DNA of 64,000 nt. Source: an uncultured Pelagibacteraceae bacterium. GTDB lineage: Bacteria > Pseudomonadota > Alphaproteobacteria > Pelagibacterales > Pelagibacteraceae. A program made the translations under genes and the position numbers. The stretch lies in contig CACLWL010000002.1 in the NCBI GenBank assembly GCA_902610655.1, positions 1 through 64,000 of the forward strand, given 5' to 3'. Shown here in pieces: positions 46,151-62,108 of this stretch (position 1 is its first letter; each line of letters starts with the position of its first letter). Below the pieces are notes generated by a model. The model did not search any database and was not told the DNA's origin. It saw only the letters and a list, made by a program, of their open reading frames with translations.

Positions 46151-47275
46151 TTAATCAACTGTTTCAATTATAGTAGCAATTCCCATTCCAAGTCCAATAC
46201 ATTGAGTTGAAAGAGCATATTTTTTATTTTCTCTTCGTAATAAATTTGCAACTTTACCAGTTATTCTTGCTCCTGTTGCTCCTAGAGGATGTCCTAATGC
46301 TAAAGCTCCTCCATCAATATTTACTTTTTTCTGATCTATTCCTAAATCTTTAATACAAGCCAAAGATTGCGAAGCAAAAGCTTCATTCAGTTCAAATATA
46401 TCAATCTGATCAATCGATAAATTTGCTCGCTTTAAAGCTTTTTTTGTAGCACCTATTGGCCCTAGCCCCATATAGTCTGGGTCACATCCATCTACTGCTG
46501 TAGAAATTATTCGACCTAAAATATCAAGATTATTATCTTTTGCGTAATTTTCTTCACAAATTATTGTTGCTGCTGCTCCATCTGTTAATGGTGATGAAGT
46601 TGCTGCAGTAACAGTTCCATTTGGATCAAATGCAAGTTTAAGCTGATCCAATTTTTCTTGTGTAGTGCCCGGTCTGATATTTCCATCAGTCTTACATTCA
46701 CCAATAGCAACTATTTCCTCATTAAATTTTCCATTTTTTTGTGCCTGGGCAGCTTTTTCATGACTTGATATAGCAAATTCTTGTTGTTCTTTTCTTAAGA
46801 TACTAAATTTTTTTGCTACATTCTCAGCTGTTGTACCCATAGTGAAATATACATGTGGGTTTTCTTTTTCAGTAAATGGATATGGAACTGGATCAAATCC
46901 AGTGTTTACTCTAGACATGCTTTCAACTCCTCCACAAATAAAAACTTTACCCGATCCCATTGCAATTTTACCAGCAGCTATATGTATAGCCTCCATAGAT
47001 GAACCGCACCATCTATCCACTGTCATTCCAGAAGTTTTAATGTTCATATCTGAGAGGAAAGTGACTAATTTACCAATGTTAAAACACTGTTCACCAACCT
47101 GAAAAGCACAACCAACAACAATATCTTCAACATCTTCTTTATTAATTTTTGATTTAGCAACTAAATTCTTTATAACCTCAGCTAATAAATTTACGGGTTT
47201 TACGTCAATCAAAGCACCTTTTCTTGCCATTGTGAAAGGTGAACGCGCGTATCCGGCAATTACTGGTTTAAACAT
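46151..47275 (-). CDS. Acetyl-CoA acyltransferase (thiolase, FadA-like)
   Basis: A 374-residue thiolase. The acyl-accepting cysteine lies in MTVDRWCGSSMEAIH. The GGVESMSRV, FELNEAFASQSLACIKDL, NIDGGALALGHPLGATGAR (catalytic His) and STQCIGLGMGIATIIE (second Cys) motifs are all present. It carries out thiolytic cleavage of 3-ketoacyl-CoA or the reverse. It closes a seven-gene minus-strand operon, 15 bases after the DmdA-like gene. A HADH-ECH protein for the preceding two beta-oxidation steps is encoded at 59251-61473. Whether it prefers acetoacetyl-CoA or longer chains is unclear. Confidence 0.92.
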   Translation of the reverse strand: MFKPVIAGYARSPFTMARKGALIDVKPVNLLAEVIKNLVAKSKINKEDVEDIVVGCAFQVGEQCFNIGKLVTFLSDMNIKTSGMTVDRWCGSSMEAIHIAAGKIAMGSGKVFICGGVESMSRVNTGFDPVPYPFTEKENPHVYFTMGTTAENVAKKFSILRKEQQEFAISSHEKAAQAQKNGKFNEEIVAIGECKTDGNIRPGTTQEKLDQLKLAFDPNGTVTAATSSPLTDGAAATIICEENYAKDNNLDILGRIISTAVDGCDPDYMGLGPIGATKKALKRANLSIDQIDIFELNEAFASQSLACIKDLGIDQKKVNIDGGALALGHPLGATGARITGKVANLLRRENKKYALSTQCIGLGMGIATIIETVD

Positions 47276-47290
47276 AGTTTATATATATAT

Positions 47291-48454
47291 TTATTTCGGA
47301 AATGGTAAAGTGGTAATAGTACCTTTAACAACCTTACCATCTGAAGTTTCTACTATTATTTTCTCATTTTCATTCCAGTGACCTTTTGAAATCATTGAAA
47401 GACCTATATTTTTTTTATATTTTGGTGAAAATATTCCTGAAGTTATACGCCCAATAATTTTTTTATTTTGAGAAAGAACTGGTAGAAGCTTACCATTTGG
47501 CTTGTATGGTTTACCACCAAACATTACACCCCGCATTTTTTGTTTTAAGCCTTTTTTTTTTATTTCTTCTAAAGCTTTTTTTCCAATAAAATTATGAGCT
47601 GATGGTTTACAATATTCCTCTAAATTACACTCAAAAGGATTATTATCTTTTGTAAAATCATTTCCATAAGACATCAAACCTCCTTCAATTCTATCAATTA
47701 GATTTGGGCATCCAGGAGAAATATTAAATTTTTTTCCTGCTTTCCAAATTGCATCCCAAAGTTTTTCACCTATATCAACACTGTCAAAATATTTTTCAAA
47801 ACCTTTAAAATAAATTTCAAAACCATCTTGTTTACTATAACCTGATCTTGCGATAATTTGCTTTGTACCCATAAAATCAAATACTCTAAAATTAAAAAAT
47901 TTAATTTTTCTTATTGATTCTCCAAAAATAGATACAAGCAATTCTTCTGATTTAGGACCTTGAACGGCAAGAGGATAAACATCAGGTTCTTTTATTCTTA
48001 CATCTAGATTAGATCCTATTGCAATACCATTGGCCCACAGTAAAATATCCGAGTCTGCAATAGAAATCCAAAACATGTCGTCATCTAATTTTAATAAAAC
48101 AGGATCATTAATCATGCCACCGTGTTCATTTAGGATTGGAATATAAAAACATTTTCCAGTTTCCATATTTTTTAATGGTCTTGGTGTTAATTTTTGAATA
48201 AGCTTAAAGGCATCTTTACCAGTTATTTGAACCTGTCTCTGACATGAAACATCCCACAATTGTACATGTTTATTAAGATGCCAATAATCTTCTTCCACAG
48301 TTTTTCTAAAGCCTTTTGGTAAAAGCATATGGTTTACAACTGTAAAATCAGATACGCCTAACTTTTCAACTTTATTTGTAAAAGGCGTACGTCTTATCCG
48401 TCTTGACATATTTAACTTAATATTTTGTGACTTATTTACTGAAGTTTTTCTCAT
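47291..48454 (-). CDS. DmdA-like GcvT-fold tetrahydrofolate methyltransferase
   Basis: A GcvT-family protein of about 388 residues (start at 48454, or 48409 with MSRRIRRTPF; the track start lies inside the previous gene). RRTPFTNKVEKLGVSDFTVVNHMLLP, VEEDYWHLNKHVQLWDVSCQRQVQITGKDA, LTPRPLKNMETGKCFYIPILNEHGGMINDPVLLKL, FKFFNFRVFDF-type and ARSGYSKQDGFEIYF strongly recall Pelagibacter DMSP demethylase DmdA. True DmdA moves a methyl from DMSP to tetrahydrofolate. As it sits among dehydrogenase and TPP-enzyme genes, it may demethylate another S- or N-methyl compound. I cannot separate true DmdA from a paralogue here. Confidence 0.8.
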   Translation of the reverse strand: MRKTSVNKSQNIKLNMSRRIRRTPFTNKVEKLGVSDFTVVNHMLLPKGFRKTVEEDYWHLNKHVQLWDVSCQRQVQITGKDAFKLIQKLTPRPLKNMETGKCFYIPILNEHGGMINDPVLLKLDDDMFWISIADSDILLWANGIAIGSNLDVRIKEPDVYPLAVQGPKSEELLVSIFGESIRKIKFFNFRVFDFMGTKQIIARSGYSKQDGFEIYFKGFEKYFDSVDIGEKLWDAIWKAGKKFNISPGCPNLIDRIEGGLMSYGNDFTKDNNPFECNLEEYCKPSAHNFIGKKALEEIKKKGLKQKMRGVMFGGKPYKPNGKLLPVLSQNKKIIGRITSGIFSPKYKKNIGLSMISKGHWNENEKIIVETSDGKVVKGTITTLPFPK

Positions 48455-48458
48455 TCGA

Positions 48459-48794
48459 TTACTTTGACCACCATACAGAATACCCATTAGGCGCAATTAT
48501 AACTGGTATATGGTATTTCTTTTTCGGATTTTTCATATTAAACTTAATTAAAATATCTGAAACATTAGTTTTTTTTTTGTAATATTTCTCCAAATTAAAA
48601 ATAAGTTCATATTTTAATAAACAATCCTTTTTTGATAGGGAAAATTCTTTAGATACTCTACCATTTTTATCTGTTTTAGATTGATAGATTTTATTTCTTT
48701 TACCATTTTTTTTTATCTGATTAATAATTACTCTAACTCCTGAAGCGTGAGAACCATCTGTTGAACTCAACAAGTGTGATGATACTATTGCCAT
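48459..48794 (-). CDS. Transthyretin/5-hydroxyisourate-hydrolase-like protein with altered C-terminus
   Basis: A 111-residue transthyretin-fold protein. SSHLLSSTDGSHASGVRVII at the N-terminus (His7) and KKYHIPVIIAPNGYSVWW at the C-terminus match HIU hydrolase. The catalytic C-terminal YRGS of uricase-pathway enzymes is replaced by WWSK, so the hydrolase activity is doubtful. No other urate genes are present. Tight spacing (three bases) to the TPP-enzyme gene suggests a role in the same pathway, for example hydrolysis of another cyclic amide. Confidence 0.75.
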   Translation of the reverse strand: MAIVSSHLLSSTDGSHASGVRVIINQIKKNGKRNKIYQSKTDKNGRVSKEFSLSKKDCLLKYELIFNLEKYYKKKTNVSDILIKFNMKNPKKKYHIPVIIAPNGYSVWWSK

Positions 48795-48797
48795 TAG

Positions 48798-50540
48798 TTA
48801 CTCAATTGATGCTTTATCTCTTTTATTACTTACGGCAGCCACAATAGGGCTAATAACCCCTTTAGCTTTAACATTCACACATGCAGTTTTTCCGCTTTCT
48901 AAAGCTCTTTTGAGTGCAGGTGCCAACTCTTCTCTTTTTAGAACAAGTTCTCCATGACCTCCAAATCCTTCAAAAATTTTATGAAAAGGAATATCTCTAA
49001 AATCTGTTGCAAAATGTTTGCCACTTTCAAACAACCTTTCTTGTTGTTGAGAAATACAATCTAATCCTCCATTGTTATCAATTACAACTACTATGGGTTT
49101 ATTTTCTTGAAATGCTGCCTCAATTGATAAGCCTCCTGATAGAAAAGCTCCATCGCCACTAATTAAAACTACATTTGACTTAGGGTTAAGATTCTTTGCT
49201 GATAGTGCAAATGGAACACCTACGCCTAGCATACTAAATGTTCCAGGATGTAGTATACCTCCAAGCTTTTTCCCTTTATGGCCTGCAATATTAATCGCTA
49301 TTTCAGACCAAAAATGTGTGTTTCCACCATCAATTACTAACCAGTCTTTATCTTTCATTACTTCCTGCACATCCAAAGCTAATTGTAGTGGGTGTATCTT
49401 TCCGCCATTCTTTTTTGCCTCAGCAGTTTCTATCTCAAGATCTTTTAAAGATTTATCAATCCATTTCTTTTTTTCTGATAAATTTTGTTCAATCCATTTT
49501 TTATCTAAATTCCATTTATTATTTAATTTTAATTTATTTAAAGTATCTAAAAACACTCCAGGATCACATAACATATTAATATCTGCTGCTCTATTTAATT
49601 CAATTTCCTCGTGAGATCCATTTATACAAATAAGTTTTGTGGATTTTGGAAATAACGGGGGATTTCCAAAATTCATTTGGTTGTCAAGTCTTGTTCCAAC
49701 CATCAAAATTAAATCAGACTCATCAAAAGCAAATTTTGAGGGAGGGTACTGATGTATATCCGCGAGCCCCATATAAGATTCTGCTTCTTCTCCCAAAAGC
49801 TTTTGATGATATGGAACATTAAAAATTGGTATATTTAAATTTTGACCTGCGGCCTCTAATTTTTTTTCAGAACCAGACCACCAAACTCCATGTCCACCAA
49901 TTATCATGGGTTTTTTTGCATTTGAAGCTAATTCCAATACCTCACTCATTTGATTTGGATCTGGCCAAGCAATATTTTTTAATTTCTTTGATTGTGAAAA
50001 AGGTCTTTCATCCAATCCTGCATTTTCATGAAATGAAGAAAACATAATATCTACAGGTACACTTAAATGAACTGCTCCCGGGTAACCATTCGTAGCTATT
50101 AAATATGCTTTATCTATAAATTCACGAATTCTATTTCCATCAGTAATACTAGCGCTATATTTTGTTAATGGTTCAGCTATTTTAACATCATCAATCTCTT
50201 TAAATCCACCTGACCCTTGTCTTCTTAAACTGCTTGATCCAGTAATGAATATTACCGGAGATCTTTCCCCCCACGCCTCCATCATTGATGGAACTGCATT
50301 GGCAAATCCTTCTGGACCAACTAAACATACAGCAGGCTTTCTGGTTATTCTTGTATGACCATCTGCAATGTGTCCTGCTATTTGTTCATGAGGACAATTA
50401 ATAACATCGATTTGACACTCCATTAATCCTTCTAATGCAGGATTACAGAAACCTCCTGAAAGTGTAAAAACATTTTCGATACCTTTGTCTCTCAAAGCTC
50501 TAGCGATTAAGGATCCACCTCTTATTTTTTTGTCTGACAT
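48798..50540 (-). CDS. Thiamine-diphosphate-dependent enzyme (acetolactate synthase / decarboxylase family)
   Basis: About 580 residues, starting at ATG 50540 (MSDKKIRGGS), one base after the upstream stop. The N-terminal PYR domain carries the catalytic glutamate in NCPHEQIAGHIADGHTR. The middle domain is AKKPMIIGGHGVWWSGS...LILMVGTRLDNQMNFG. The C-terminal PP domain has the ThDP motif SGDGAFLSGGLSIEAAFQENKPIVVVIDNN. It decarboxylates or ligates 2-keto acids in known relatives. Glyoxylate carboligase, oxalyl-CoA decarboxylase, HACL and ALS share this layout and I cannot choose between them. With an upstream hydroxyacid dehydrogenase supplying a 2-keto acid, a decarboxylase role is likely. 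Confidence 0.85.
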   Translation of the reverse strand: MSDKKIRGGSLIARALRDKGIENVFTLSGGFCNPALEGLMECQIDVINCPHEQIAGHIADGHTRITRKPAVCLVGPEGFANAVPSMMEAWGERSPVIFITGSSSLRRQGSGGFKEIDDVKIAEPLTKYSASITDGNRIREFIDKAYLIATNGYPGAVHLSVPVDIMFSSFHENAGLDERPFSQSKKLKNIAWPDPNQMSEVLELASNAKKPMIIGGHGVWWSGSEKKLEAAGQNLNIPIFNVPYHQKLLGEEAESYMGLADIHQYPPSKFAFDESDLILMVGTRLDNQMNFGNPPLFPKSTKLICINGSHEEIELNRAADINMLCDPGVFLDTLNKLKLNNKWNLDKKWIEQNLSEKKKWIDKSLKDLEIETAEAKKNGGKIHPLQLALDVQEVMKDKDWLVIDGGNTHFWSEIAINIAGHKGKKLGGILHPGTFSMLGVGVPFALSAKNLNPKSNVVLISGDGAFLSGGLSIEAAFQENKPIVVVIDNNGGLDCISQQQERLFESGKHFATDFRDIPFHKIFEGFGGHGELVLKREELAPALKRALESGKTACVNVKAKGVISPIVAAVSNKRDKASIE

Positions 50541-50541
50541 T

Positions 50542-51699
50542 TTAATACTTAAACTCTCTAATAAATCTTTCTGCAATTATATCCGAAGATACGTCTTTTA
50601 TATCATTTAAACCTACTAATCCCAAGGTTGTACTAAGTTCTTCTTTAATAATATCAACTATTCTTCTAAGTCCTTTAGCACCGTCAGCACCTATTCCATA
50701 CATCAAAGGTCTTCCCACCATAGTAAAATCAGCTCCCAATCCTAATGCTCTAACAATGTCACTACCTCCTCTTATTCCACTATCAAATATTATTGGAAAA
50801 TCTTTACCTAAGGCATTTCTAATTAAAGGAAGCGCCTCTATAGAAGTAGTTGCACTATCTAATTGTCTCCCTCCATGATTAGATACTTGTATTGCATCAA
50901 CTCCTTCATCTTTGATTTTCGTAGCATCCTCTGGTGACATCACACCTTTTATTATTAATTTTCCTTTCCATTTTTCTCTTACTCTTTTAAGAGTATTCCA
51001 ATCTGTAGATCCTCTGCTTTCACTTCTAACAAATTTCTTTACCTTCTTAGATGTATGATAATTCATTGGTTTAGGTATTCCATACATCAATGTGCCTATT
51101 GACCAAAGAGGATGTGTTGCAAAGTCAAAAAATTGTTTGGGGCCTAGATTAAATGGAACAGTAAATCCATTCTTATTATCTTTAGCTCTTCTAAATTGTA
51201 TTGGTACATCAACAGTAAGAATTGCAACTTTATAACCCTTTTCATGAGCTCTATCTAAAAGCTCCATTAAGAATTCTTCATCTTGAAAATTATATAATTG
51301 CAACCAACAATTTCCTTGTGAAAGATCATACATTTTTTCTAAAGATGTGGACGACGCCATGGAAACACACATGGGTATATTGTTTGCCCTACACTCATCA
51401 GCTAGCATTTTATCTGCTCCTGGCCATGTTAAATTGCACATTCCCATCGGAGCAAAACCAAATGGTTGGTCATATTCAGACCCTAAAAAATTTTTTTTAA
51501 TCTTTCTTTTTTCAATATTTCTAAGTACTCTTGGTTGTAGTCTAATTTGATCTAGAGCTTTACTATTGCTTTCACATAATTTTTCATCTCCTGATGCGCC
51601 ATCAACAAAATCAAACATCATCTTGGGCATTCTTTTTTTAGCTAAACTACGAGCGTCTTCTACGCTATGAATTTTTTTGCTTGTTAAATTATTATTCAT
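50542..51699 (-). CDS. FMN-dependent alpha-hydroxyacid dehydrogenase (LldD/glycolate-oxidase family)
   Basis: A 385-residue TIM-barrel flavoprotein. Motifs are SVEDARSLAKKRMPKMMFDFVDGASGDE, PFGFAPMGMCNLTWPGAD, CWLQLYNFQD, ILTVDVPIQFRRAKDNKNGF, LIIKGVMSPEDA and the catalytic VSNHGGRQLDSATTSIEALP (His base, Arg), then FDSGIRGGSDIVRALGLGADFTMVGRPLMYG for FMN phosphate. It oxidises an L-2-hydroxyacid to a 2-keto acid, probably passing electrons to quinone or oxygen. The substrate chain is unknown. It overlaps the upstream S51 peptidase gene by eight bases. Confidence 0.92.
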   Translation of the reverse strand: MNNNLTSKKIHSVEDARSLAKKRMPKMMFDFVDGASGDEKLCESNSKALDQIRLQPRVLRNIEKRKIKKNFLGSEYDQPFGFAPMGMCNLTWPGADKMLADECRANNIPMCVSMASSTSLEKMYDLSQGNCWLQLYNFQDEEFLMELLDRAHEKGYKVAILTVDVPIQFRRAKDNKNGFTVPFNLGPKQFFDFATHPLWSIGTLMYGIPKPMNYHTSKKVKKFVRSESRGSTDWNTLKRVREKWKGKLIIKGVMSPEDATKIKDEGVDAIQVSNHGGRQLDSATTSIEALPLIRNALGKDFPIIFDSGIRGGSDIVRALGLGADFTMVGRPLMYGIGADGAKGLRRIVDIIKEELSTTLGLVGLNDIKDVSSDIIAERFIREFKY

Positions 51700-52387
51700 A
51701 AGTTTTTTTTATATGATCATTTAAGAGAATTCTATTATTTTTATTGATAAAATACGCAGATCTATTTTTTTTAGACGAACATACTGTGTTTGGTTTACCA
51801 TTAATAAAAAGCACTGCAGCTTCATCATCTATAGCAATTCCAGAAGGTATTTTTTTATTTTTGATGTTCAATTCAAATTCAGTTAATCGATTTTTTTTAG
51901 ATGCGTGAGGTGTGCAGCTTCCTGAGATAAAGTTCATTCCTTTTAGAGGCTTATATCCGCTTCCTAAAGAGTCGGTTAATATCCATTCAAACCAACACAC
52001 AGCGCCAGCACTTACACCTGATAAAATGATACCCGCATTATAAGCATCTTTGAAATTTTTATATAATTTATGTCTTTGCCATAAGTTAAGCATAAAATAA
52101 GTATCTCCTCCTCCAACATAAATTATATCCTTATCCTTAATCCAATCCGAAAAACCCACTACTTTTGAACAAAGCTCAAAATGAGATAGTTCTAAATCAT
52201 ATTTCTTTAATTCTTTATAGAATAATTTAATTTTATTAGGGTTATCTTTACTTGCTGTCGGTAAAAAGCCGAATTTAATATTTCTTTTTATTTTTTGATT
52301 AATTACAAACTCATCTAAAATTTTATCAGACTGATGAGTAAACCCACCACCCCCAATAGATATAATTTTTTTTTCGACTCTTTTCAT
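51692..52387 (-). CDS. Peptidase S51 (PepE / cyanophycinase-like)
   Basis: A 231-residue protein with the class-I-glutaminase-like fold of dipeptidase E and cyanophycinase. The IISIGGGGFTH start, IIYVGGGDTYFMLNLW and ILSGVSAGAVCWFEWILTDS (nucleophile Ser in the SAG elbow) are present. PHASKKNRLTEFE and AIDDEAAVLFING follow. PepE-type enzymes split Asp-X peptides; others split beta-aspartyl or N-acyl amide bonds. In this operon it may hydrolyse an imported peptide-like compound brought in by the neighbouring Dpp-type system. Confidence 0.85.
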   Translation of the reverse strand: MKRVEKKIISIGGGGFTHQSDKILDEFVINQKIKRNIKFGFLPTASKDNPNKIKLFYKELKKYDLELSHFELCSKVVGFSDWIKDKDIIYVGGGDTYFMLNLWQRHKLYKNFKDAYNAGIILSGVSAGAVCWFEWILTDSLGSGYKPLKGMNFISGSCTPHASKKNRLTEFELNIKNKKIPSGIAIDDEAAVLFINGKPNTVCSSKKNRSAYFINKNNRILLNDHIKKTYE

Positions 52388-52396
52388 TTAAGAAAT

Positions 52397-53623
52397 TTAA
52401 TTTTTATAAATTCCTGCCCAAGGTTCTGGTTTACTAGGTATATTTTTCGACAACCCACGAACTATCTCGTTTTTCTCATCGTACATTGGTAATTTACAAA
52501 TCTCACCTTTATATAGATTCCCATCTAAACACTTAACATCTATTACAGACCCTGGTCCAATATTATCATTGTTTAAATGAATTATTGCTACACCACAAAC
52601 CTGAAAAGGTGACCAGGTACTTGATGTAACTTTTCCGATCAATTTTTTTTCGATAAAAATGTTTTCACCTTTTAACGCTACACTTTCTTTAACTCTCAGC
52701 CCCCATGTTCTACATTTTTTCTCAACATTTGATAGTGCGTTTTTTCCAATAAAATCCTTTTTATCTAAATCTACAAATTTTCCAAGACCAACCGAGAAAG
52801 GATTTGTATTTTTATTAAAATCTTGTCCAGCTGAAAGAAGGCCTGCCTCTATTCTTCTACCTCTAAAGGATGGTGTAGCTGTTAAAATCATTCCCATTTT
52901 TTGTCCTTCAGAAAGAATTAAATCTCCAATTTTTTCAGTATTATTTTCAGGTCTAAAATATATTTCCCAGCCTAGTTCGTTGGTAAATCCAGTTCTACTA
53001 ATAATAACTTTTTCATTTAAAATTGTAACTTCCTTACAATCAAAATAATTCCATGTTTTTGCTGTATCCTTTTTTATTAATTTTGACAAAAGTTCCATAG
53101 ATTTAGGACCTTGAATTTGACTAATCCATACATTTGGATCAGATATTTCCACCTCATAACCTTCAGAGTTTGCTTTGTACCATGAAAAAAGATCTCCATC
53201 AGCTTGTGCAAACCAATATTTTTGATCTTCTAATCGTAAAAGAATTCCGTCTGTGATCATCCCACCATCATGGTAACATGCAAATTGGTAAGAACATCTT
53301 CCAACTTTTACTCTTGAAATGTTTCTTGGAAAAATTCTTTCTAAAAACTTTAATGAATCTGGACCAGATATCTCATATGGATATTCTCCAGTATGTCTTA
53401 AAATAATTTCCTTTCTTGTTTTCCAATACATTTCCTCAGGAGTAGCATTTGAGAGTTTTTCTAAAGTTAGTCTCCCTGCATAATGTGAATATTCTGGTTC
53501 ATAAGGCAGTTCTTGATATGTGAGAGGGTGAATTGGAAGAGTTCTTGCTAGCTCAACCTCATTACCACCATTCAATTTGGTTGGTTTAATAGAAAATCTG
53601 ACTTTTTTTAGCGTATCATGCAT
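52397..53623 (-). CDS. GcvT-fold aminomethyltransferase-like protein
   Basis: A 408-residue GcvT-family protein with an N-terminal extension (MHDTLKKVRFSIKPTKLNGGNEVELARTLPIHPLTY). The core has YWKTRKEIILRHTGEYPYEISGPDSLKFLERIFPRNI, YQFACYHDGGMITDGILLRLEDQKYWFAQ, WISQIQGPKSMELL, ISRTGFTNELGWEIYF and RIEAGLLSAGQDFNKNTNPFSVGL. This is the folate-binding T-protein plan, so it probably transfers a one-carbon unit to tetrahydrofolate. It differs clearly from the DmdA-like gene downstream in the same operon. It is the first gene of the operon. Confidence 0.82.
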   Translation of the reverse strand: MHDTLKKVRFSIKPTKLNGGNEVELARTLPIHPLTYQELPYEPEYSHYAGRLTLEKLSNATPEEMYWKTRKEIILRHTGEYPYEISGPDSLKFLERIFPRNISRVKVGRCSYQFACYHDGGMITDGILLRLEDQKYWFAQADGDLFSWYKANSEGYEVEISDPNVWISQIQGPKSMELLSKLIKKDTAKTWNYFDCKEVTILNEKVIISRTGFTNELGWEIYFRPENNTEKIGDLILSEGQKMGMILTATPSFRGRRIEAGLLSAGQDFNKNTNPFSVGLGKFVDLDKKDFIGKNALSNVEKKCRTWGLRVKESVALKGENIFIEKKLIGKVTSSTWSPFQVCGVAIIHLNNDNIGPGSVIDVKCLDGNLYKGEICKLPMYDEKNEIVRGLSKNIPSKPEPWAGIYKN

Positions 53624-53667
53624 TTTATTTACCTTAGATGATTATTAAACAACAAATGTCAATAAAA

Positions 53668-53687
53668 CAATAAAGTTTTCTTTATTG
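53668..53687. promoter_or_regulatory. Perfect palindrome in the shared promoter of the catabolic island
   Basis: CAATAAAG-TTTT-CTTTATTG has exact 8-base arms around a four-base centre. It lies in the 116-base gap between the seven-gene minus operon and the plus-strand transporter set. Central position in a divergent promoter makes a common operator likely; the winged-helix gene at 61470-61802 is a candidate ligand protein. Confidence 0.45.
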
Positions 53688-53739
53688 ATCTCGAAGTAAC
53701 GAATTGTTAACTTTATATTTTAAAAAGAGGGGTTAATTT

Positions 53740-55227
53740 ATGAAACAAATATACAAAGTGATATCATTTTCATTGATATCTTTAATGTTGTCTTTTTCAT
53801 TAGTAAATGCATCTAGCGGAGTTTTTAAATTATCGCATGATCTAGGCTTTGGAAAAGATACAAACCTTGATGCAATTACTAAAGGTCGTTTATTCCAAGT
53901 GGTTATAATGACACAAAATCGTTTAGTAAGAAAAGATTTAAAAGGAAAAGTTTCTGCATCATTAGCAACAAAATGGTCGGCGAACTCTGAAGCAACTGAA
54001 TGGACTTTCAACCTTCGTAAAGGGATTAAATTTCACGATGGTTCTGATTTTGATGCAGAGGATGTTAAATATTCATTAATGCGAGTTAAAGATCCAGATA
54101 TTGGATCTCCGGCTAAGAAAAGTATGAGCTCTGTTACTGATATTGAAGTAGTAGATTCACATACTGTAAAAATGAAATTAAATACTTCATTCGCAGATTT
54201 TCCATTATTATTAACTGATTACAGATTAAGAATGATACCTTCAGGCTCTGGGGATACCATTGGTAAAACTGGTATAGGTACTGGACCATTTAAAGTAGAT
54301 ACATTTGATCCAGAAGGAACAACTGTTCTTAAAGCAAATCCAGATTATTGGGAAGGCGCACCTGGCGTAGGTGAAGTGCATGTAATTGCTATACCTGATG
54401 GGGAAGCAAGAGTTCAAGCACTTCTTACTGGTCAGATTGATATGAATAGATATGTTCCATTTAGTCAGAAAAAAATTTTTGACGGTAATAAAAAATTTAA
54501 CGTTTCAGTAGTACCAACTGGGAACTGGAGAGGTATGGTTATGAGAACAGACACAGCTCCATTCGACAATCCAAAAGTAAGAAAAGCAGTTAGATTGGCG
54601 GTTGATAGACAAGAGCTTGTCGATTTAGTTATGGGAGGAGCAGCCACTGTATCTTGCGATACACCTGTTGCACCATCAGATCAATATCGTCTAAAAATGA
54701 AATGTCCTCAAGATATTAAGAAAGCTAAAAAACTTCTTAAAGAAGCTGGATATCCAGACGGTTTTGATATGGTAATACACGTATCAACTAAAGAACCTAC
54801 TTGGCCAACAATTGGTGAAGTATTACAACAGCAATTAGCTAAAGCAGGGATTAAAGCTGAAGTTAAAATGACACCTTCAAAAAGTTACTGGAAAGAAACT
54901 TGGATGAAAAAAGCAGTAGCAATGACTCGTTGGAATGAAAGACCAGCAGACAGTATTCTTCACGAAGCTTATCATAGTGGAGCAAAATGGAATGAGTCAT
55001 TTTTCAAAAATAGTGCATTCGATAAAAATTTATCTGATGCAAGAGGTGAATTGAACTTCGGTAAAAGAAAAAAAGCTTACCAAAATGCTCAAAAAACTTT
55101 ATGGGAAGAGTCTGGTACAATGATTCCTTATCACGTATCTAAACTTGTTATAACTTCATCTAGAGTTAAAAATTTAGATGATGTAGAAGTTTTTTCTGTG
55201 CGTTGGCATAAGCTAAAAGTAGACTAA
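53740..55227 (+). CDS. Dipeptide/oligopeptide-type ABC solute-binding protein (SBP_bac_5)
   Basis: A 495-residue periplasmic binding protein. The signal peptide ends near LVNA. GRLFQVVIMTQNRLVRKDLKGKVSASLATKWSANSEATEWTFNLRKGIKFHDGSDFDAEDVKYSLMRVKDP is the classic family-5 region. GTGPFKVDTFDPEGTTVLKANPDYWEG and NPKVRKAVRLAVDRQELVDLVMGG follow. These proteins bind peptides, nickel chelates, glutathione, opines and other organic solutes, so substrate is open. It starts the plus-strand arm of the island, after AAAGAGGGG as ribosome site, and a hairpin follows it. Confidence 0.9.
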   Translation: MKQIYKVISFSLISLMLSFSLVNASSGVFKLSHDLGFGKDTNLDAITKGRLFQVVIMTQNRLVRKDLKGKVSASLATKWSANSEATEWTFNLRKGIKFHDGSDFDAEDVKYSLMRVKDPDIGSPAKKSMSSVTDIEVVDSHTVKMKLNTSFADFPLLLTDYRLRMIPSGSGDTIGKTGIGTGPFKVDTFDPEGTTVLKANPDYWEGAPGVGEVHVIAIPDGEARVQALLTGQIDMNRYVPFSQKKIFDGNKKFNVSVVPTGNWRGMVMRTDTAPFDNPKVRKAVRLAVDRQELVDLVMGGAATVSCDTPVAPSDQYRLKMKCPQDIKKAKKLLKEAGYPDGFDMVIHVSTKEPTWPTIGEVLQQQLAKAGIKAEVKMTPSKSYWKETWMKKAVAMTRWNERPADSILHEAYHSGAKWNESFFKNSAFDKNLSDARGELNFGKRKKAYQNAQKTLWEESGTMIPYHVSKLVITSSRVKNLDDVEVFSVRWHKLKVD

Positions 55228-55239
55228 TACAAAAACTTT

Positions 55240-55269
55240 TTTTACAGGCCTTTAATTAGGCCTGTAAAA
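55240..55269. terminator. Hairpin after the binding-protein gene
   Basis: TTTTACAGGCCT and AGGCCTGTAAAA form perfect 12-base arms around TTAATT in the 94-base gap before the permeases. It lacks a clear T-run afterward on the plus strand, so it may serve to stabilise the binding-protein mRNA or to attenuate transcription rather than stop it. Confidence 0.65.
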
Positions 55270-55321
55270 TCTAATTCATTTATTATAAATATATTTAAAT
55301 TAAATATTTATAATCATTATT

Positions 55322-56278
55322 ATGTTAATTTTAGTTTTAAAAAGAATTCTTCTTGGATTGATAACTTTATTTATTGTCTCATTAATTACTTTTGTTGGTG
55401 TTGAGGTTTTACCAGGTGATGCGTGTACAACTTATCTTGAACGAGAGGCCTATGGTGCTGCTCTTGAGGCATGTTATAAAAGATTAGGATTGGATATCCC
55501 AGCTTATGAAAGATATGTTAATTGGGCAGTAGGTGTAATCCAAGGTGATTTTGGTTATTCATTGAGTGGGGAAATGAAAATAAATGATGTGTTAGGCCCA
55601 AGAGTAAAAAATTCATTAGTTTTGGCGTCAGCTTCAATTTTGATAGGAATTCCAATTGCTTTATTGTTGGGTATTATCACAGCATTATGGAGAGATAAAT
55701 TACCAGATATAATAATTTCGACTTTTACAATTTTTTCAATGACAATTCCTGAATTTATAAGTGCAACGTTATTAATATTAATTGTTGCAATTTGGTTAGA
55801 ATGGTTGCCAGGAATAGTTATAGTGCCAACAGGTGCTTCAATATCAGAATTGTTGCCAAATATAATTTTACCTGTAATTGCAATTTCAATGATTATGACT
55901 GCTCATATGGCCAGAATGGTAAGATCAAGCGTTATACAAGTTATGTCATCAGACTATGTTCAAATGGCAATACTCAAAGGTGTACCTTATTGGAAAATGG
56001 TATTTAAACATGTATTACCAAATGCATTATTGCCAGCAATTAATGTAGTTGCCTTAACAATTGCATGGTTATTAGGTGGAGTAGTTGTTACAGAAGTAGT
56101 ATTTAATTATCCTGGCTTAGGTCGACTAGTAATCGAGTCTATTTCAAATAGAGATTTACCAGTTGTGCAAGCTTTAGCAATTATTTTAGCTTCTATATAT
56201 GTCGTTATTAACCTGATAGCGGATTTATTAACTTTAATGTTAAATCCTAGATTAAAATCACTTCAAATTAAAAAATGA
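55322..56278 (+). CDS. dppB: Dpp-type ABC permease DppB
   Basis: A 318-residue permease. MLILVLKRILLGLITLFIVSLITFVGVEVLPGDACTTYLER is the DppB/OppB N-terminus. LGLDIPAYERYVNWAVGVIQGDFGYSLSG, the coupling loop SSDYVQMAILKGVPYWKMVFKHVLPNALLPAI and GVVVTEVVFNYPGLGRLVIESISNRDLPVVQA follow. It pairs with DppC; the genes overlap by ATGA. Confidence 0.93.
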   Translation: MLILVLKRILLGLITLFIVSLITFVGVEVLPGDACTTYLEREAYGAALEACYKRLGLDIPAYERYVNWAVGVIQGDFGYSLSGEMKINDVLGPRVKNSLVLASASILIGIPIALLLGIITALWRDKLPDIIISTFTIFSMTIPEFISATLLILIVAIWLEWLPGIVIVPTGASISELLPNIILPVIAISMIMTAHMARMVRSSVIQVMSSDYVQMAILKGVPYWKMVFKHVLPNALLPAINVVALTIAWLLGGVVVTEVVFNYPGLGRLVIESISNRDLPVVQALAIILASIYVVINLIADLLTLMLNPRLKSLQIKK

Positions 56279-57165
56279 ACTCAACTATTAAAGAAGAAAA
56301 ACCAAAAAATACTATTTCAAAAGTATTAGAAGTTATTTTAACCATGGTATCAAGACCATCAGGTTTAATTGGCTTAATAATTTTAATTTTTCATGTAACG
56401 CTTGCAATAACAAGCCCTTTGTATGTACCTCATGATTATAAAGCTATAGATCCATCTTTGATGTTACAACCACCATCTTCGGAATATTGGTTTGGAACAG
56501 ATAGCTTAGGTAGAGATGTTTTTACAAGAACCATACTAGGAGGTCGTACAGCTTTAACAGTTACTTTTTTTGGTTCTTTAATTGCCCTGTTGTGGGGAGG
56601 TGCAGTTGGTATTTTTTGTGGTTTAGTTGGAGGAAAAATTGATGATGTTGTTATGAGAATAATTGATGCGTTTTTATCTATTCCATGGATACTTGCTATG
56701 CTGTTAATAGTGTCTTTACTTGGCACATCCATAATAGTTTTAATTCCTGCTCTAGGATTCTTTTATGGAAAGGGAATTGTAAGAGTTGCAAGAGCGGCAA
56801 CACATGATGTAATCGCTAAGGATTTTATAGTTTCTGCAAGAGCTAGAGGTCATAGTAACTTTTCTATAATTTGGAATGAAATACTGCCTAATGTGAGAGA
56901 TGCGATTATGGTTGAGGGTGCAATGAGGTGGTCATGGATGTTGTTAGGTTTTAGCTCATTATCTTTTTTAGGTTTTGGTGTGAGTCCTCCAACTCCTGAT
57001 TGGGGTTTAATGATATCTAATGCAAGAGGATTAATGTCGTTTGCATATTGGTCAGTTCTTGCTCCAATATTTGGATTAAGTTCACTTATAATTGGTATTA
57101 ATTTAACAGCAGATGCCTTTGCAAAAGCTTTAGGCATTGATAGATCAACAAAAGCCCCAGTTTAA
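56275..57165 (+). CDS. dppC: Dpp-type ABC permease DppC
   Basis: A 296-residue permease. PSSEYWFGTDSLGRDVFTRTILGGRTALTVTFFGSLIALLWGGAVGIFCGLVGGKIDDVVMRIIDAFLSIPWILAMLL is the DppC signature region. VSARARGHSNFSIIWNEILPN is the coupling loop, and FGVSPPTPDWGLMISNARGLMSFAYWSVLAPIFG completes it. One base separates its stop from the ATPase start. Confidence 0.93.
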   Translation: MNSTIKEEKPKNTISKVLEVILTMVSRPSGLIGLIILIFHVTLAITSPLYVPHDYKAIDPSLMLQPPSSEYWFGTDSLGRDVFTRTILGGRTALTVTFFGSLIALLWGGAVGIFCGLVGGKIDDVVMRIIDAFLSIPWILAMLLIVSLLGTSIIVLIPALGFFYGKGIVRVARAATHDVIAKDFIVSARARGHSNFSIIWNEILPNVRDAIMVEGAMRWSWMLLGFSSLSFLGFGVSPPTPDWGLMISNARGLMSFAYWSVLAPIFGLSSLIIGINLTADAFAKALGIDRSTKAPV

Positions 57166-57166
57166 A

Positions 57167-59200
57167 ATGCAACAGGTAGTCCAAGAAATTAAAAATTTAT
57201 CAATTGGTTTTACGAGTAAAAAAGGTCAACAAATTTCAATTTTAAAAAATATTAATACAAAAATTAAAAAAGGAGAAACAGTTGGAATCGTAGGAGAATC
57301 CGGATCAGGTAAAAGTACTCTTGCTTTAGCAATGATGGGATATGTTAAGCATGGATTATACACAATTTCAGGCGAATGCTTGTATCAATCAAATAATATT
57401 TTAAAAATGAAAAACAGAGAACTAGAGGGTATTCGTGGAAGAAAAATTGCAATGATACCCCAAAATGCTGGACAGTCTTTGACACCAAATTTAAAAATTG
57501 GATATCAGATAGATGAAGCTTTAAAATTACACACCAATCTTAAAAAAGAAAATAGAGATAATAAAATTTCTGAATTACTAAACAAAGTAAGGCTACCTTC
57601 TCCAGAAGCAATTTCAAAAAGATATCCGCATGAACTTTCAGGCGGTCAACAACAAAGAGTAGCTGTAGCAATGGCTTTAGCAGGTAATCCAGATTTATTA
57701 CTATTAGACGAACCTACTACTGGCTTAGATGTTACAACCCAAGCACATGTACTAGAGTTACTTAATTTTATTGCAAAAGATACTGGCACTTCGATGGTTT
57801 ATGTTAGTCATGACCTAGGTGCGATTGCACAAGTTAGCGATAGAGTAATTGTAATGTATTCGGGTGAAATAGTTTTAGATGGTCCAGTTAGAAATATTCT
57901 AAAAAATCCTATCCATCCGTATACTTATGGATTATTAAAATCTATACCAAAGTTAACCCTTTCAGGTTTGCCTGACTCGATGTCTGGCAGTCAGCCGCAG
58001 CCTGGAACAATTAAACAAGGATGCAGTTTTTATGTAAGGTGCCAATTTGCAGAGGATAAATGTAAAATAAATTCTCCAGAACTGGAATTTGTAGATGAGT
58101 TTAATACTAGCGTCAGATGCTTTAATCATAAAAAACTTCATAAACAAAAAAGTATAGACACAAGTTCCTCAAAACAATTAATTAATAAAATTCAAAAAAA
58201 TGAAATTTTAGATATTTCTTCGGTATCTATTAGTTATGCTAAACAGAAATTTTTGGAGCAATTATTAAATAAGATTGATGATAGCAATCCAACAGTCAAA
58301 GATATAAATATTAATATTGATAAAGGTGAAACACTAGCTTTAGTTGGCGAGTCAGGTAGTGGAAAATCTACTATTCTAAAATCAATTGCAGGTCTAATAA
58401 AAACAAAAGATGGTACAATTAAATTTGATAAAAAAAAAATATTATCAAATGATCTTAAAAAAAGAGATGCAAATAATTTGAGGGCTATTCAATTGATTTT
58501 CCAAAATCCGGATGAATCTCTTAATCCAAATCACACAGTAGAGGAAATAGTATCACAGCCACTAAAACTATATTTCGGTTTGACTGGCGAGGAGTTGAAA
58601 CAGAAAATTATAGAAGTTTTAGAAAAGGTAAGATTGGGGGAATTTTATCTTACAAGATATCCGAGACAACTTTCAGGAGGAGAGAAGCAAAGAGTAGCTG
58701 TAGCAAGAGCATTTGCTGCAAAACCTGATATTATTCTTTGCGATGAGGTTACATCTGCATTAGATGTTTCAGTTCAAGCTGCTGTTTTAAATTTACTTCA
58801 AGAACTTAAAGAAGATTTTGGCACAACGTATATATTTGTTTCTCATGACTTAGCAGTTGTGAGAGCAATAAGTGATAGGGTTGCTGTTTTGTATCAAGGT
58901 AGATTATGTGAGATTGGCCCATCAGACAGTGTCTACAAATTTCCTTCTCATCCTTATACAGAAGTTCTTTTAGGTGCCGTTTTAGAACCAGATCCTGATG
59001 TAAAACCAAAATTAGTTGCAGAGGATATTGTTGAAGAGAAGCCACCAGAAAAGGGCTGTTCTTTTCAAGGTAGGTGCCCAAGGTTTCTAGGCGAAATTTG
59101 CAAAACTAATGTTCCCCCTTGGCAAATAGATGAAAATGGAAACTCAATTCGTTGCCACATTAAGATTAATGATTTAAAAAAACAACAAAAACTAAATTAA
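57167..59200 (+). CDS. Fused Dpp-type double ABC ATPase (DppD-DppF)
   Basis: A 677-residue protein that joins both nucleotide-binding subunits; ATG 57167 is used instead of the TTG in the track. Half one has Walker A GESGSGKST near residue 43, signature LSGGQQQRVAVAMA near 158 and Walker B LLLLDEPTTGLD. Half two has Walker A GESGSGKST near 393, signature LSGGEKQRVAVARA near 502 and Walker B IILCDEVTSALD. Each half ends with the oligopeptide C-terminal cysteine segment (GCSFYVRCQFAEDKC, GCSFQGRCPRFLGEIC). Such fusions are common for glutathione- and peptide-type systems. Confidence 0.93.
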   Translation: MQQVVQEIKNLSIGFTSKKGQQISILKNINTKIKKGETVGIVGESGSGKSTLALAMMGYVKHGLYTISGECLYQSNNILKMKNRELEGIRGRKIAMIPQNAGQSLTPNLKIGYQIDEALKLHTNLKKENRDNKISELLNKVRLPSPEAISKRYPHELSGGQQQRVAVAMALAGNPDLLLLDEPTTGLDVTTQAHVLELLNFIAKDTGTSMVYVSHDLGAIAQVSDRVIVMYSGEIVLDGPVRNILKNPIHPYTYGLLKSIPKLTLSGLPDSMSGSQPQPGTIKQGCSFYVRCQFAEDKCKINSPELEFVDEFNTSVRCFNHKKLHKQKSIDTSSSKQLINKIQKNEILDISSVSISYAKQKFLEQLLNKIDDSNPTVKDININIDKGETLALVGESGSGKSTILKSIAGLIKTKDGTIKFDKKKILSNDLKKRDANNLRAIQLIFQNPDESLNPNHTVEEIVSQPLKLYFGLTGEELKQKIIEVLEKVRLGEFYLTRYPRQLSGGEKQRVAVARAFAAKPDIILCDEVTSALDVSVQAAVLNLLQELKEDFGTTYIFVSHDLAVVRAISDRVAVLYQGRLCEIGPSDSVYKFPSHPYTEVLLGAVLEPDPDVKPKLVAEDIVEEKPPEKGCSFQGRCPRFLGEICKTNVPPWQIDENGNSIRCHIKINDLKKQQKLN

Positions 59201-59250
59201 GACAATTTTTTTATTCCATGTCACAACTAAATTTAATATAAAAACACTCC

Positions 59251-61473
59251 ATGAAAATAAATAAAGTAGTTGTTATTGGTTCAGGAACGATGGGGAGTGG
59301 TATTGCTGCTCATCTTTGCAATGCAAATATTCCAGTCACATTATTAGACTTAACAACAGAAATTAGTCAAAAGGCAAAAGAAAGAATTCAAAAATCTAGA
59401 CCTCCTTTGCTAATCGACAAGTCAAAAATTAATGGAATTAATATTGGAAATATAAATGATAATTTTAATGAAGTTGCAGAAGCAGACTGGATAGTCGAGG
59501 CCGTTGTCGAAAGAATTGATATAAAGCATGATATTTATAAAAAAATATTTGATACTAGGAAAAAAAATACAATAGTATCCTCAAATACATCATCTATCCC
59601 AATTAGCATTTTGTCAGAAAAGTTATCTGATGAAGATAAAAAAGATTTTTGTATTACGCATTTTTTCAATCCGGTTAGATATATGGGGCTTTTAGAAATT
59701 GTTAAAAGTGAGAGCTCGGATTTAGATAAAATAAATTATCTTAAAAAATTTTGTGAGCATGAATTAGGTAAGGGGGCAATTATTTGTAATGATACCCCAG
59801 GATTTCTAGGAAATAGAATTGGTGTATTTGCGATGCAAGTTGCAATGACTGAAGCTTTTAAAATGAATTTATCAATCGAGGAGGCCGATGCAATATTTGG
59901 AAGACCAATGGGCATACCAAAAACAGGAGTATTTGGTTTATACGATTTAATTGGTATAGACCTTATGTCAGATGTTTTAAAAAGTTTTATTAAAGAACTT
60001 CCTGAAAACGATCCGTTTCAGCAAGTTGCGAAAGAAATTCCACTTATTACTAAATTAATTAAAGATGGCTACACCGGTAGAAAAGGTAAGGGTGGCTTCT
60101 ATAGAATGAATAAGCATGAAAATAAAAAAGTATTAGAAGCAATTAACCTTGAGACAGGGGAATACTTACCATCGAAAAAAATTGAACTAGGCATCGAAAC
60201 AGTAGATTTAAATTCATTAATTAATAGAAAAGATAAGTTTGGTGAGTACGCTTGGTCAGTAATATCAAAAATTATAAAATACTCATCATCTTTAGTTCCA
60301 GGCATTACAGATAAATTTAATGATATCGATGAAGCTATGAGACTAGGTTTCAATTGGTCTATGGGACCATTTGAAATGTTAAAATCAATTGGTGTGAGTA
60401 ATTTTTTTGACAAAGTGAAAGATGTAAAAGGGAATTCTTTCTTAGAAAACTTATCAAAAACAAAAGACGAAAACTTTTATGGCGAACGTCAGTTATATAC
60501 TGATATTGAAACACTAGGAAAAATAAAACCAAGAGCAATTAAGGTCGACAAAAATAAGTCTGCTGACATACTTAGATTTAAAGATTTTAATATCGTAGAA
60601 TTTACTACGAAAGCTTGCGCTTTAGATTATGATTCTATGGATGCACTGAAAAATGCGACCGATAAACCTTTAATAATAATTAATGAAAGTATGCAATTTT
60701 CAGCAGGTGTTAATTTAAAATATACAATGGAATTTGTTGAAAAAGGGGATTTTAAATCAGTTGAAAATTTTATAAAATATTTTCAACAAACTTGTAAACA
60801 TTTAAAATATTGTAAGCACCCTGTAATTTCAGCACCATCAGGATTAGTGTTAGGTGGAGGAGAGGAAGTTGCAATTCAATCAAATTTTGTTGTTTCTCAT
60901 ACTAACATTGTAATGGGACTTGTCGAAACTGGAGTAGGAGTTGTACCTGCAGGAGGCGGATGTAAGGAAGTTTTATGGAGATGGTCACAAACTGAAGAAG
61001 CTAAAAAAGATCCAGATTATGCACCGCTACAAGTTTTCAATATTATAGGTTATGCAAAAACAGCTACATCAACTGTAGAGGCATTACCATTAAAATTTTT
61101 AAGACCTGAAGATAAAATGGTAATGAATAGAAATAGTTTATTGGAGGAAGCTAAGAAATTATTAGAAAGTAATAAAAATTTTCAACCCCCTAAAGAATGT
61201 ACATTTAAATTATCTGGTAAACCTCTTAAAGACAAAATGATAAAATCTTTAGAAAAACTCTATAATGAAAAAATTATTTTAGATCATGGCTTTAAAGTTG
61301 GAGAAGAGCTAGCAACAGTCCTAAGCGGAGGTGACACTTCTATCGATAAAGAACTGAGTGAGGATAAACTTTATAATTTAGAATTAGAATCATTTATGCG
61401 ATTAATTGAGACTAAGCAAACACAAGACAGAATTAAACATACTCTTTCTACAGGCAAACAATTAGTAAATTAA
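59251..61473 (+). CDS. 3-hydroxyacyl-CoA dehydrogenase / enoyl-CoA hydratase fusion
   Basis: A 740-residue bifunctional beta-oxidation protein. Order is reversed from classical FadB. The dehydrogenase comes first: VVVIGSGTMGSGIAAHL binds NAD, SSNTSSIPISIL and FCITHFFNPVRYMGLLEIV carry the catalytic Ser/His region, and DTPGFLGNRIGVFAMQ begins the helical half. From about residue 440 a crotonase domain follows (FSAGVNLKYTMEF, PSGLVLGGGEEVAIQSNFVVSH, GLVETGVGVVPAGGGCKEVLWR). It would hydrate enoyl-CoA and oxidise hydroxyacyl-CoA, feeding the thiolase of the divergent operon. It follows the ATPase by 50 bases. Confidence 0.92.
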   Translation: MKINKVVVIGSGTMGSGIAAHLCNANIPVTLLDLTTEISQKAKERIQKSRPPLLIDKSKINGINIGNINDNFNEVAEADWIVEAVVERIDIKHDIYKKIFDTRKKNTIVSSNTSSIPISILSEKLSDEDKKDFCITHFFNPVRYMGLLEIVKSESSDLDKINYLKKFCEHELGKGAIICNDTPGFLGNRIGVFAMQVAMTEAFKMNLSIEEADAIFGRPMGIPKTGVFGLYDLIGIDLMSDVLKSFIKELPENDPFQQVAKEIPLITKLIKDGYTGRKGKGGFYRMNKHENKKVLEAINLETGEYLPSKKIELGIETVDLNSLINRKDKFGEYAWSVISKIIKYSSSLVPGITDKFNDIDEAMRLGFNWSMGPFEMLKSIGVSNFFDKVKDVKGNSFLENLSKTKDENFYGERQLYTDIETLGKIKPRAIKVDKNKSADILRFKDFNIVEFTTKACALDYDSMDALKNATDKPLIIINESMQFSAGVNLKYTMEFVEKGDFKSVENFIKYFQQTCKHLKYCKHPVISAPSGLVLGGGEEVAIQSNFVVSHTNIVMGLVETGVGVVPAGGGCKEVLWRWSQTEEAKKDPDYAPLQVFNIIGYAKTATSTVEALPLKFLRPEDKMVMNRNSLLEEAKKLLESNKNFQPPKECTFKLSGKPLKDKMIKSLEKLYNEKIILDHGFKVGEELATVLSGGDTSIDKELSEDKLYNLELESFMRLIETKQTQDRIKHTLSTGKQLVN

Positions 61474-61802
61474 TTAAATATTTTTTGTTGTTGGTTATGC
61501 CACTTTTCAAGCGCTGGACTAAGGGCTTCACAAGAGTAATACTTTTTCCTTTTATCTTTTTTATCTATAAATTTTTTTAAGTACCCCAACTTAACACCCT
61601 CTAATAAAATTGTTTGTATGGTTGTTCTACTGACTGTTGATTGAGTTATTTTACACAAATTTTCAAAAGTAATTTTGTCGTGCCCATAAATATAACAAAT
61701 TATTATAAAATGTATTTTTGTTTTAAAAACAAATGACAAAACACCGGTATCATGTACGTGACTTACTAAGTCAGAAGCTATTTTAATAAATTTGTTTTTC
61801 AT
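61470..61802 (-). CDS. Small winged-helix regulator (MarR-like)
   Basis: About 110 residues from ATG 61802; the upstream extension in the track has no family look. DKITFENLCKITQSTVSRTTIQTILLEGVKLGYLKKFIDKKDKRKKYYSCEALSPALEKWHNQQQ is a winged-helix pattern. The recognition helix is around TQSTVSRTTIQTIL, and the wing is formed by KDKRKKYYS, as in MarR-type proteins. It is shorter than typical MarR. It converges on the HADH-ECH gene with a four-base overlap, so it is a candidate regulator of the island. Confidence 0.65.
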   Translation of the reverse strand: MKNKFIKIASDLVSHVHDTGVLSFVFKTKIHFIIICYIYGHDKITFENLCKITQSTVSRTTIQTILLEGVKLGYLKKFIDKKDKRKKYYSCEALSPALEKWHNQQQKIFN

Positions 61803-62108
61803 AATATTAAAATTTATTACTAAAAAACAATAGTATTTTTTTCGCCACATATAACCAATGCTGATACAGATTTTGAGCTATGCAATTTGATCATTTTAGA
61901 ATGAATTTAAGTTAATGCTCGATAGCAAAATATAGAATTAAAAAAACCCCCATTATAAAGGCTAATCTGAACCTATTTTACAATTAAATTTTGGTACTAA
62001 ATTTTAGTGCGATTTAAAAATTATATTACTTTAAATATCATTAGCTAAGATGCTTAAAACGTAAGGGATTCAATACTTATTTAATTAATTTGGGAGAATT
62101 AGACCAAT
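61803..62108. promoter_or_regulatory. Control region before the adhesin gene
   Basis: This 306-base AT-rich gap lies between the divergent regulator gene and the adhesin. No ORF, tRNA or clear repeat is seen. A GGGAGA ribosome site precedes the adhesin ATG. The length is unusual for this compact genome, so leader or operator elements may be present but I cannot point to one. Confidence 0.35.

Follow-up and report, generated by a model that had tools for sequence, protein, structure and literature searches.

A putative mobile catabolic island of SAR11 carries a DmdA-family demethylase in a gene quartet also found in other alphaproteobacteria

The window analysed here is a stretch of 64,000 nucleotides of an uncultured Pelagibacteraceae bacterium of the SAR11 group (assembly GCA_902610655.1, contig CACLWL010000002.1, positions 1 to 64,000); it corresponds to contig C2 of genome G000, which has 1.07 Mb and is 82% complete. 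Between potC and a gene for a HADH-ECH protein it holds genes A to K, which, judging from relatives that have the empty site, are probably a horizontally mobile catabolic island inserted at this place in SAR11. Four of them, E-D-C-B, form a quartet that we also find elsewhere: a flavin mononucleotide (FMN)-dependent 2-hydroxyacid dehydrogenase, a thiamine pyrophosphate (TPP) enzyme, a transthyretin-fold hydrolase and a demethylase of the DmdA family. It is in our opinion an even call whether B is a new folate-dependent demethylase, distinct from the dimethylsulfoniopropionate (DMSP) demethylase and central to an undescribed E-D-C-B pathway for a common methylated marine metabolite, shared by SAR11, SAR116-like and Rhodobacteraceae-like bacteria; part of the published dmdA, notably that of SAR116, would then belong to this pathway.

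Gene content and boundaries of the island

Genes A to G (46151-53623) occupy the minus strand, and the importer H to K (family-5 solute-binding protein, DppB, DppC, DppDF; 53740-59200) diverges from them on the plus strand:

45294..46148, plus strand: potC, with which the core polyamine transporter potABCD ends, flanking the insertion on the left
46151..47275, minus strand: A, thiolase, acetyl-coenzyme A (CoA) C-acyltransferase subfamily (TIGR01930, 420 bits, cutoff 240.55)
47291..48454, minus strand: B, DmdA-family folate-dependent demethylase (NF009133, 526.8 bits; 3tfh, 392 bits)
48459..48794, minus strand: C, transthyretin/5-hydroxyisourate hydrolase (HIUase)-fold hydrolase (PF00576, 72.6 bits)
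48798..50576, minus strand: D, TPP-dependent lyase/decarboxylase (PF02776/PF00205/PF02775)
50542..51699, minus strand: E, FMN-dependent 2-hydroxyacid dehydrogenase (PF01070, 402.8 bits)
51692..52387, minus strand: F, S51-family serine hydrolase (PF03575, 117.2 bits)
52397..53623, minus strand: G, stand-alone GcvT-fold demethylase (PF01571, 141.6 bits)
53624..53739, no strand: intergenic region from which the two arms diverge (aligned with its SAR11 counterparts)
53740..55227, plus strand: H, family-5 solute-binding protein (PF00496, 299.6 bits)
55322..56278, plus strand: I, DppB-type permease (gene order)
56275..57165, plus strand: J, DppC-type permease (gene order)
57137..59200, plus strand: K, fused DppDF-type ATPase, with which the island ends on the right (gene order)
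59251..61473, plus strand: L, HADH-ECH protein, outside the island (empty site in six genomes)
61470..61850, minus strand: M, winged-helix-like small protein, outside the island (without Pfam or NCBIfam match)

The original prediction of seven tightly packed minus-strand genes and a divergent Dpp-type importer is borne out: the successive gaps within A-G are 15, 4, 3, -35, -8 and 9 bases, taking ATG 48454 as the start of B, which is probably right in preference to TTG 48496. For SAR11 we used the 80 loci of named genomes that match gene G best, all from Pelagibacteraceae single-cell or metagenome assemblies except one metagenome-assembled genome (MAG) labelled Acidiferrobacteraceae. The order and orientation A-G / H-K are kept in 79 of these 80 loci as far as the contigs reach, the exception being a lone gene G; chance would hardly produce such an arrangement. 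Gene G is present at 66% identity or more in 13 of the 61 searched genomes of the genus of the host, and parts of the island lie at contig ends in at least four further ones (G005, G017, G047 and G009). All compared genomes are drafts, some neighbour genes were identified by eye only, and the loci are often related to one another, so that neither these counts nor those given below stand for independent events.

In six island-free SAR11 genomes of the genus L directly follows potC, which delimits the insert to A-K; to the right of L come the usual genes, mostly including agmatinase and aldehyde dehydrogenase. L had been taken for an island gene; it belongs instead to the ancestral polyamine locus, though it may nowadays be co-transcribed with H-K. 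The winged-helix-like protein M, which the original prediction placed at the end of the set, occurs only in close relatives of the host; it is also present, at 75% identity, in the island-free genome G056, and is thus not part of the island. Nor do we find support for a winged-helix regulator of the island. The predicted end of the route, a built-in β-oxidation through HADH-ECH and thiolase, loses its HADH-ECH component by the empty site. As for thiolase A, it is 81–82% identical among island carriers, against at most 40% in island-free SAR11, and is absent from every non-SAR11 cassette region apart from paralogues at 36–37%; by these identities it is specific to the island in SAR11.

The two arms had also been thought to share a palindromic promoter. 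The repeat AACAATAAAG-4-CTTTATTGAT at 53666-53689 is imperfect and AT-rich; in the alignment it is present in the closest clade and absent from the other SAR11 intergenic regions. The palindrome is thus not conserved, and a palindromic operator common to both arms is not supported. Promoter-like matches were fewer than in shuffled sequences (63 versus 76.8). Outside SAR11 a LysR protein recurs as regulator, in 9 of 20 loci; the SAR11 island is devoid of one.

The E-D-C-B quartet outside SAR11

Outside SAR11 we considered 20 loci holding an orthologue of D and scored co-occurrence within about 10 kb of it; the terms "SAR116-like" and "Rhodobacteraceae-like" are readings from size, GC (guanine-cytosine) and gene content, genome G772 being taken as Rhodobacteraceae-like on gene content. 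These D orthologues are 61–84% identical to D, while the next-best homologues do not exceed 38%. They are rare: 12 of 249 genomes in the family of G772 have one, as do 5 of 14 from the order to which G466 belongs and 5 of 384 other genomes of a class-level sample; a search of plasmids for D gave no match at E 1e-60. C adjoins D in 20/20 loci, the four genes E-D-C-B are together in 15/20, and one more locus has D-C-B. Judging from this co-inheritance, the conserved unit is the quartet rather than the full SAR11 island. D is the most conserved of its members. The original prediction named scattering of the genes among relatives as what would speak against an island; we find on the contrary that they stay together in SAR11, and their core elsewhere in alphaproteobacteria.

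The company of the quartet varies. In G772 it is accompanied by the importer and S51, while G, MttB, thiolase and HADH are all missing from the region read. A DctM protein of the tripartite ATP-independent periplasmic (TRAP) type, at 69–77% identity, is common to one SAR11 variant and three non-SAR11 loci. In other lineages the neighbours are Ldh_2, PanE/ApbA, fumarylacetoacetate (FAA) hydrolase, an aminotransferase and TRAP DctPQM; the first four suit 2-hydroxy and 2-oxo acids. Agmatinase-family genes adjoin the quartet in two Rhodobacteraceae-like genomes (L236:7411-19856 and L227:10564-12822), and in L236 its neighbours further include potABCD, an Amdase-family gene and an M24 peptidase, which recalls the SAR11 flank.

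C, D and E keep catalytic residues. In C, the catalytic His/Arg/His is invariant in 24 sequences; its score of 72.7 bits falls below the equivalog cutoff of TIGR02962 (5-hydroxyisourate hydrolase, 87.45), and its terminus is W-x-S in place of YRGS in 24/24 sequences. D has the N, M and C Pfam domains of TPP enzymes, the catalytic Glu and the GDG motif, and reaches none of the named equivalogs (HACL, OXC, ALS, Xsc; best 262.2 versus 587 bits); the solved-structure matches listed liken it to 2-hydroxyacyl-CoA lyases and acetolactate synthases rather than to benzoylformate decarboxylase. In E the Tyr/Lys/His/Arg of 2-hydroxyacid oxidases are kept in nearly all copies, with the exception of the split copy of L034; its nearest solved structures include L-lactate oxidase and (S)-mandelate dehydrogenase, and it remains under the named equivalog/exception cutoffs (LldD, 223.5 versus 550 bits; lactate oxidase, 172.6 versus 645.5). 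Catalysis by C, D and E is thus likely intact, with an altered specificity in C. This copy of E, in genome G054 (L034:6444-7599), appears divided between two frames, because of a sequencing error or because the gene itself is broken.

Gene B and the DMSP demethylases

B passes the NCBIfam DMSP-demethylase cutoff (NF009133, 526.8 versus 410 bits), as do the quartet B of L203, L207 and L240, and it is 44–49% identical to DmdA of SAR11 and roseobacters. The folate-site residues E204 and Y206 of 3TFH are kept in all B sequences, and this Glu and Tyr are also found in G. The description of B and G as two GcvT-fold enzymes is therefore right for the fold and understates B. Such a resemblance leads to the most serious rival explanation: B could be an ordinary second DMSP demethylase, and the island an extension of known DMSP catabolism, which would either produce DMSP as an intermediate—from 4-dimethylsulfonio-2-hydroxybutyrate (DMSHB), oxidised by E, decarboxylated by D and finished by an aldehyde dehydrogenase—or supplement DMSP demethylation. 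The Trp W171, called key for DMSP in PMC7487153 and mapped here to W197 of 3TFH, is Tyr in every quartet B, but it is Tyr in roseobacter DmdA too, which suits this rival; that residue alone proves nothing about B.

Other observations make an ordinary second DmdA unlikely. In the tree, all quartet B including those of SAR11 form one clade (support 99/95) beside, and not within, the DmdA of SAR11 and roseobacters; L242, whose 39% homologue lies in another cluster, stands on a long branch with roseobacter DmdA and, being non-quartet, is excluded from this statement. G000 also holds a separate dmdA adjoining AMP-ligase and acyl-CoA dehydrogenase genes, dmdB/dmdC-like, which matches the known DMSP route; in the loci read, only this separate dmdA has such neighbours, which were not found beside any quartet B. 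Besides, S51, C and D would all be superfluous for DMSP. The quartet B thus probably has another function, although it is routinely counted as the DMSP demethylase; should it prove inactive on DMSP, estimates based on dmdA overstate DMSP demethylation in its carrier lineages.

The SAR116-like genomes G313 and G481 have no better DmdA match than their quartet B (43–46%), the remaining paralogues being at 36–38%. In PMC4304780, SAR116 strain IMCC1322 is shown to make dimethyl sulfide, and demethylation is deduced from the dmdA gene; the corresponding statements in PMC8547437, in PMC12262181 and, for subclade B/3, in PMC6309047 also rest on annotation. The published statements on SAR116 DMSP demethylation thus probably rest, at least in part, on the quartet B.

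A third DmdA-like clade exists in SAR11 (L016-L026). Its relatives on Phaeobacter plasmids (L169:9114-10253 and L167:6004-7146) adjoin OsmC, enoyl-CoA hydratase and acyl-CoA synthetase genes.

The importer, the S51 hydrolase and the second demethylase

Orthologues of the importer occur in non-SAR11 cassettes, with identities of 54–57% for H, about 60–62% for I, about 61–63% for J and 55–58% for K. S51 accompanies the orthologous importer in 4/4 of these loci and is found in 0/16 of the others (Fisher p = 2e-4), a linkage which suggests that F probably processes what the importer brings in. F itself lies below the equivalog cutoffs of PepE (29.1 versus 156 bits) and cyanophycinase (28.2 versus 126.6 bits).

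G is below every NCBIfam equivalog or subfamily cutoff: 185.7 against 1100 bits for trimethylamine N-oxide (TMAO) demethylase, 171.2 against 410 for DmdA, 155.3 against 300 for GcvT and 69.3 against 580 for LigM. Its relatives are dimethylglycine dehydrogenase (DMGDH)- and TMAO-demethylase-like, and it has Phe at the 3TFH W197 position. In five non-SAR11 loci, none of which has G, we find instead an MttB protein, adjoining S51 in the SAR116-like G313 and G481 and nearby in G845. PMC12478193 reports that roseobacters demethylate glycine betaine by means of an MttB-type MtgB and a corrinoid protein, that SAR116 also has this MtgB, and that Pelagibacteraceae are without MtgC. From the MttB loci devoid of G and this lack of MtgC we infer that G is a cobalamin-free stand-in for MttB; if true, G would allow a lineage that lacks that route to manage without cobalamin. 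One genome (L198) has G plus a homocysteine methyltransferase.

These data bring forward a second rival, in which only a quaternary-ammonium compound, a betaine, serves as substrate and loses successive N-methyls to G/MttB and B, with no involvement of sulfur. The nearest solved relatives of MttB, which include trimethylamine and glycine betaine methyltransferases, point this way, like the relatives and the Phe of G and the GlxA-type regulator adjoining plasmid-borne G. However, B groups with sulfonium (DMSP) demethylases and is the sole demethylase of G772 in the region read; moreover, unless a flavin oxidation step is involved, a methyl group is chemically difficult to transfer from a tertiary amine. 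We consider a betaine alone improbable.

The plasmid orthologues of G, at 53–55% identity, are carried by Tritonibacter and Phaeobacter (L051:14001-15209 and L052:14001-15209), where they adjoin LysR and GlxA-type regulators and the other island genes are missing. In the MAG labelled Acidiferrobacteraceae, a G at 68% (L127:1936-4856) is followed by relatives of a DUF2182/DUF1326 pair; such a pair adjoins dmdA in Antarctobacter.

Other features of the locus

Several additional genes were seen at or near the insertion site: a gene read as BioY (biotin transporter) between K and L in L034 (L034:15131-15715) and L037; a branched-chain aminotransferase adjoining A (L062:17413-18348); a TRAP transporter at the same site (L066:18256-21165); and an SBP_bac_3-like gene between F and G (L032:7418-8146), a similar protein being near a SAR116-like cassette (L200:2274-3005). 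A gap of about 700 bases separates K and L in 41/80 loci, of which, outside L034 and L037, only the size was observed. A 12-pair hairpin at 55240-55269 of the window, between H and I, is a possible site of transcript processing or attenuation. Beside the M gene of an island-free relative lies a PATR/Gly-rich passenger-like protein of 2100 amino acids (L247:7511-16003; window 61470-64000); the gene 3' of it resembles its secretion partner, and a related protein starts at position 18381 of L031.

Proposed pathway

We propose that the A-K island, a quartet core with helper modules, degrades a small methylated zwitterion (an "onium" compound) with a 2-hydroxy acid backbone, present from the start or formed on the way, a proposal to which we give as much credence as doubt. 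The Dpp-type importer would take up a peptide- or amide-like form, from which the S51 hydrolase F would free the acid. B and, separately, G (an MttB-type enzyme in other lineages) would then take methyl groups off S+ or N+ and pass them on to a one-carbon acceptor, which for B and G would be tetrahydrofolate. E would turn the 2-hydroxy acid into a 2-oxo acid, D would decarboxylate or cleave it, and C might hydrolyse a cyclic or strained product. Carbon would finally exit via lineage-specific CoA chemistry, through thiolase A in SAR11. Import, hydrolysis, demethylation, the oxidation of a 2-hydroxy acid and a TPP step are thus retained from the original prediction, their gene set being conserved. 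DMSHB or its trimethylammonium analogue, which fits B, E and D, is our leading concrete guess for the substrate, held with little confidence.

Several points weigh against this proposal. Beyond the gene set and the residues, which the sequence shows, the individual reactions, the order in which they occur and the class of substrate are all deduced; likewise MttB is placed at the same step as G from position only, and the structure prediction for G, made with a 10-sequence alignment, was discarded (mean predicted local distance difference test score, pLDDT, 47; predicted template-modelling score, pTM, 0.39). D-C stands without B and E in 4/20 of the non-SAR11 loci. S51, the importer and MttB are missing, within the region read, from most non-SAR11 quartets, so that the full chain is not universal. 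In the DMSHB version, C and F have no natural place.

That independent cargo genes simply gathered at a hot spot by the polyamine locus is highly improbable: the site does also collect BioY, aminotransferase, SBP_bac_3-like and TRAP genes, and both G and D-C are found elsewhere without the other island genes, but distant families keep E-D-C-B together, the quartet is repeatedly accompanied by the importer, S51, MttB and TRAP, and no gap between the seven minus-strand genes exceeds 15 bases. Cyanophycin/arginine catabolism (S51 with agmatinase) was rejected, agmatinase being a core gene of the locus and the demethylases being left unexplained. Mycosporine-like amino acids, with their methoxy group and amino-acid side chains, were considered and set aside, with nothing specific for or against them.

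The open-access literature searched on the gene set, on gonyol in SAR11 and on DMSHB catabolism gave, in titles, abstracts and selected passages, no description of the cluster, in agreement with the original statement that no described pathway has this set. SAR11 are among the most abundant marine bacteria, so that an undescribed catabolic route in them would mean an uncounted substrate. For the proposed onium pathway, the binding protein, the S51 hydrolase and the demethylase of the cassette offer a joint lead toward the compound.

Comparison with known systems

The SAR11 polyamine locus (potABCD, agmatinase; PMC8437039) houses the island, and potABCD with an agmatinase-family gene also flank the quartet of L236; however, SAR11 genomes devoid of the island also have potABCD and HADH-ECH, as core genes. 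C shares fold and catalytic His/Arg/His with HIUase, from which it departs by its score below the equivalog cutoff and its W-x-S terminus, and no urate genes are found in the cassettes read. E followed by D would work like the FMN dehydrogenase mdlB and the TPP decarboxylase mdlC of the mandelate pathway; among the solved matches listed, D nevertheless resembles 2-hydroxyacyl-CoA lyases and acetolactate synthases and not benzoylformate decarboxylase, and the island adds a demethylase and a transthyretin-fold hydrolase.

The MtgB/MtgC system for glycine betaine demethylation in roseobacters and SAR116 (PMC12478193) involves the MttB superfamily, genes of which stand beside or near S51 in several cassettes, whereas the SAR11 island has the GcvT-fold G instead, with no corrinoid gene seen in it. 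The closest relative of B remains DmdA of Pelagibacter (3TFH; dmdABC), with which it shares the fold, the folate-site Glu and Tyr, 44–49% identity and a score above the NCBIfam cutoff. Yet B belongs to a separate clade and travels with E-D-C rather than with dmdB/dmdC, in a host whose genome has a second, usual DmdA.

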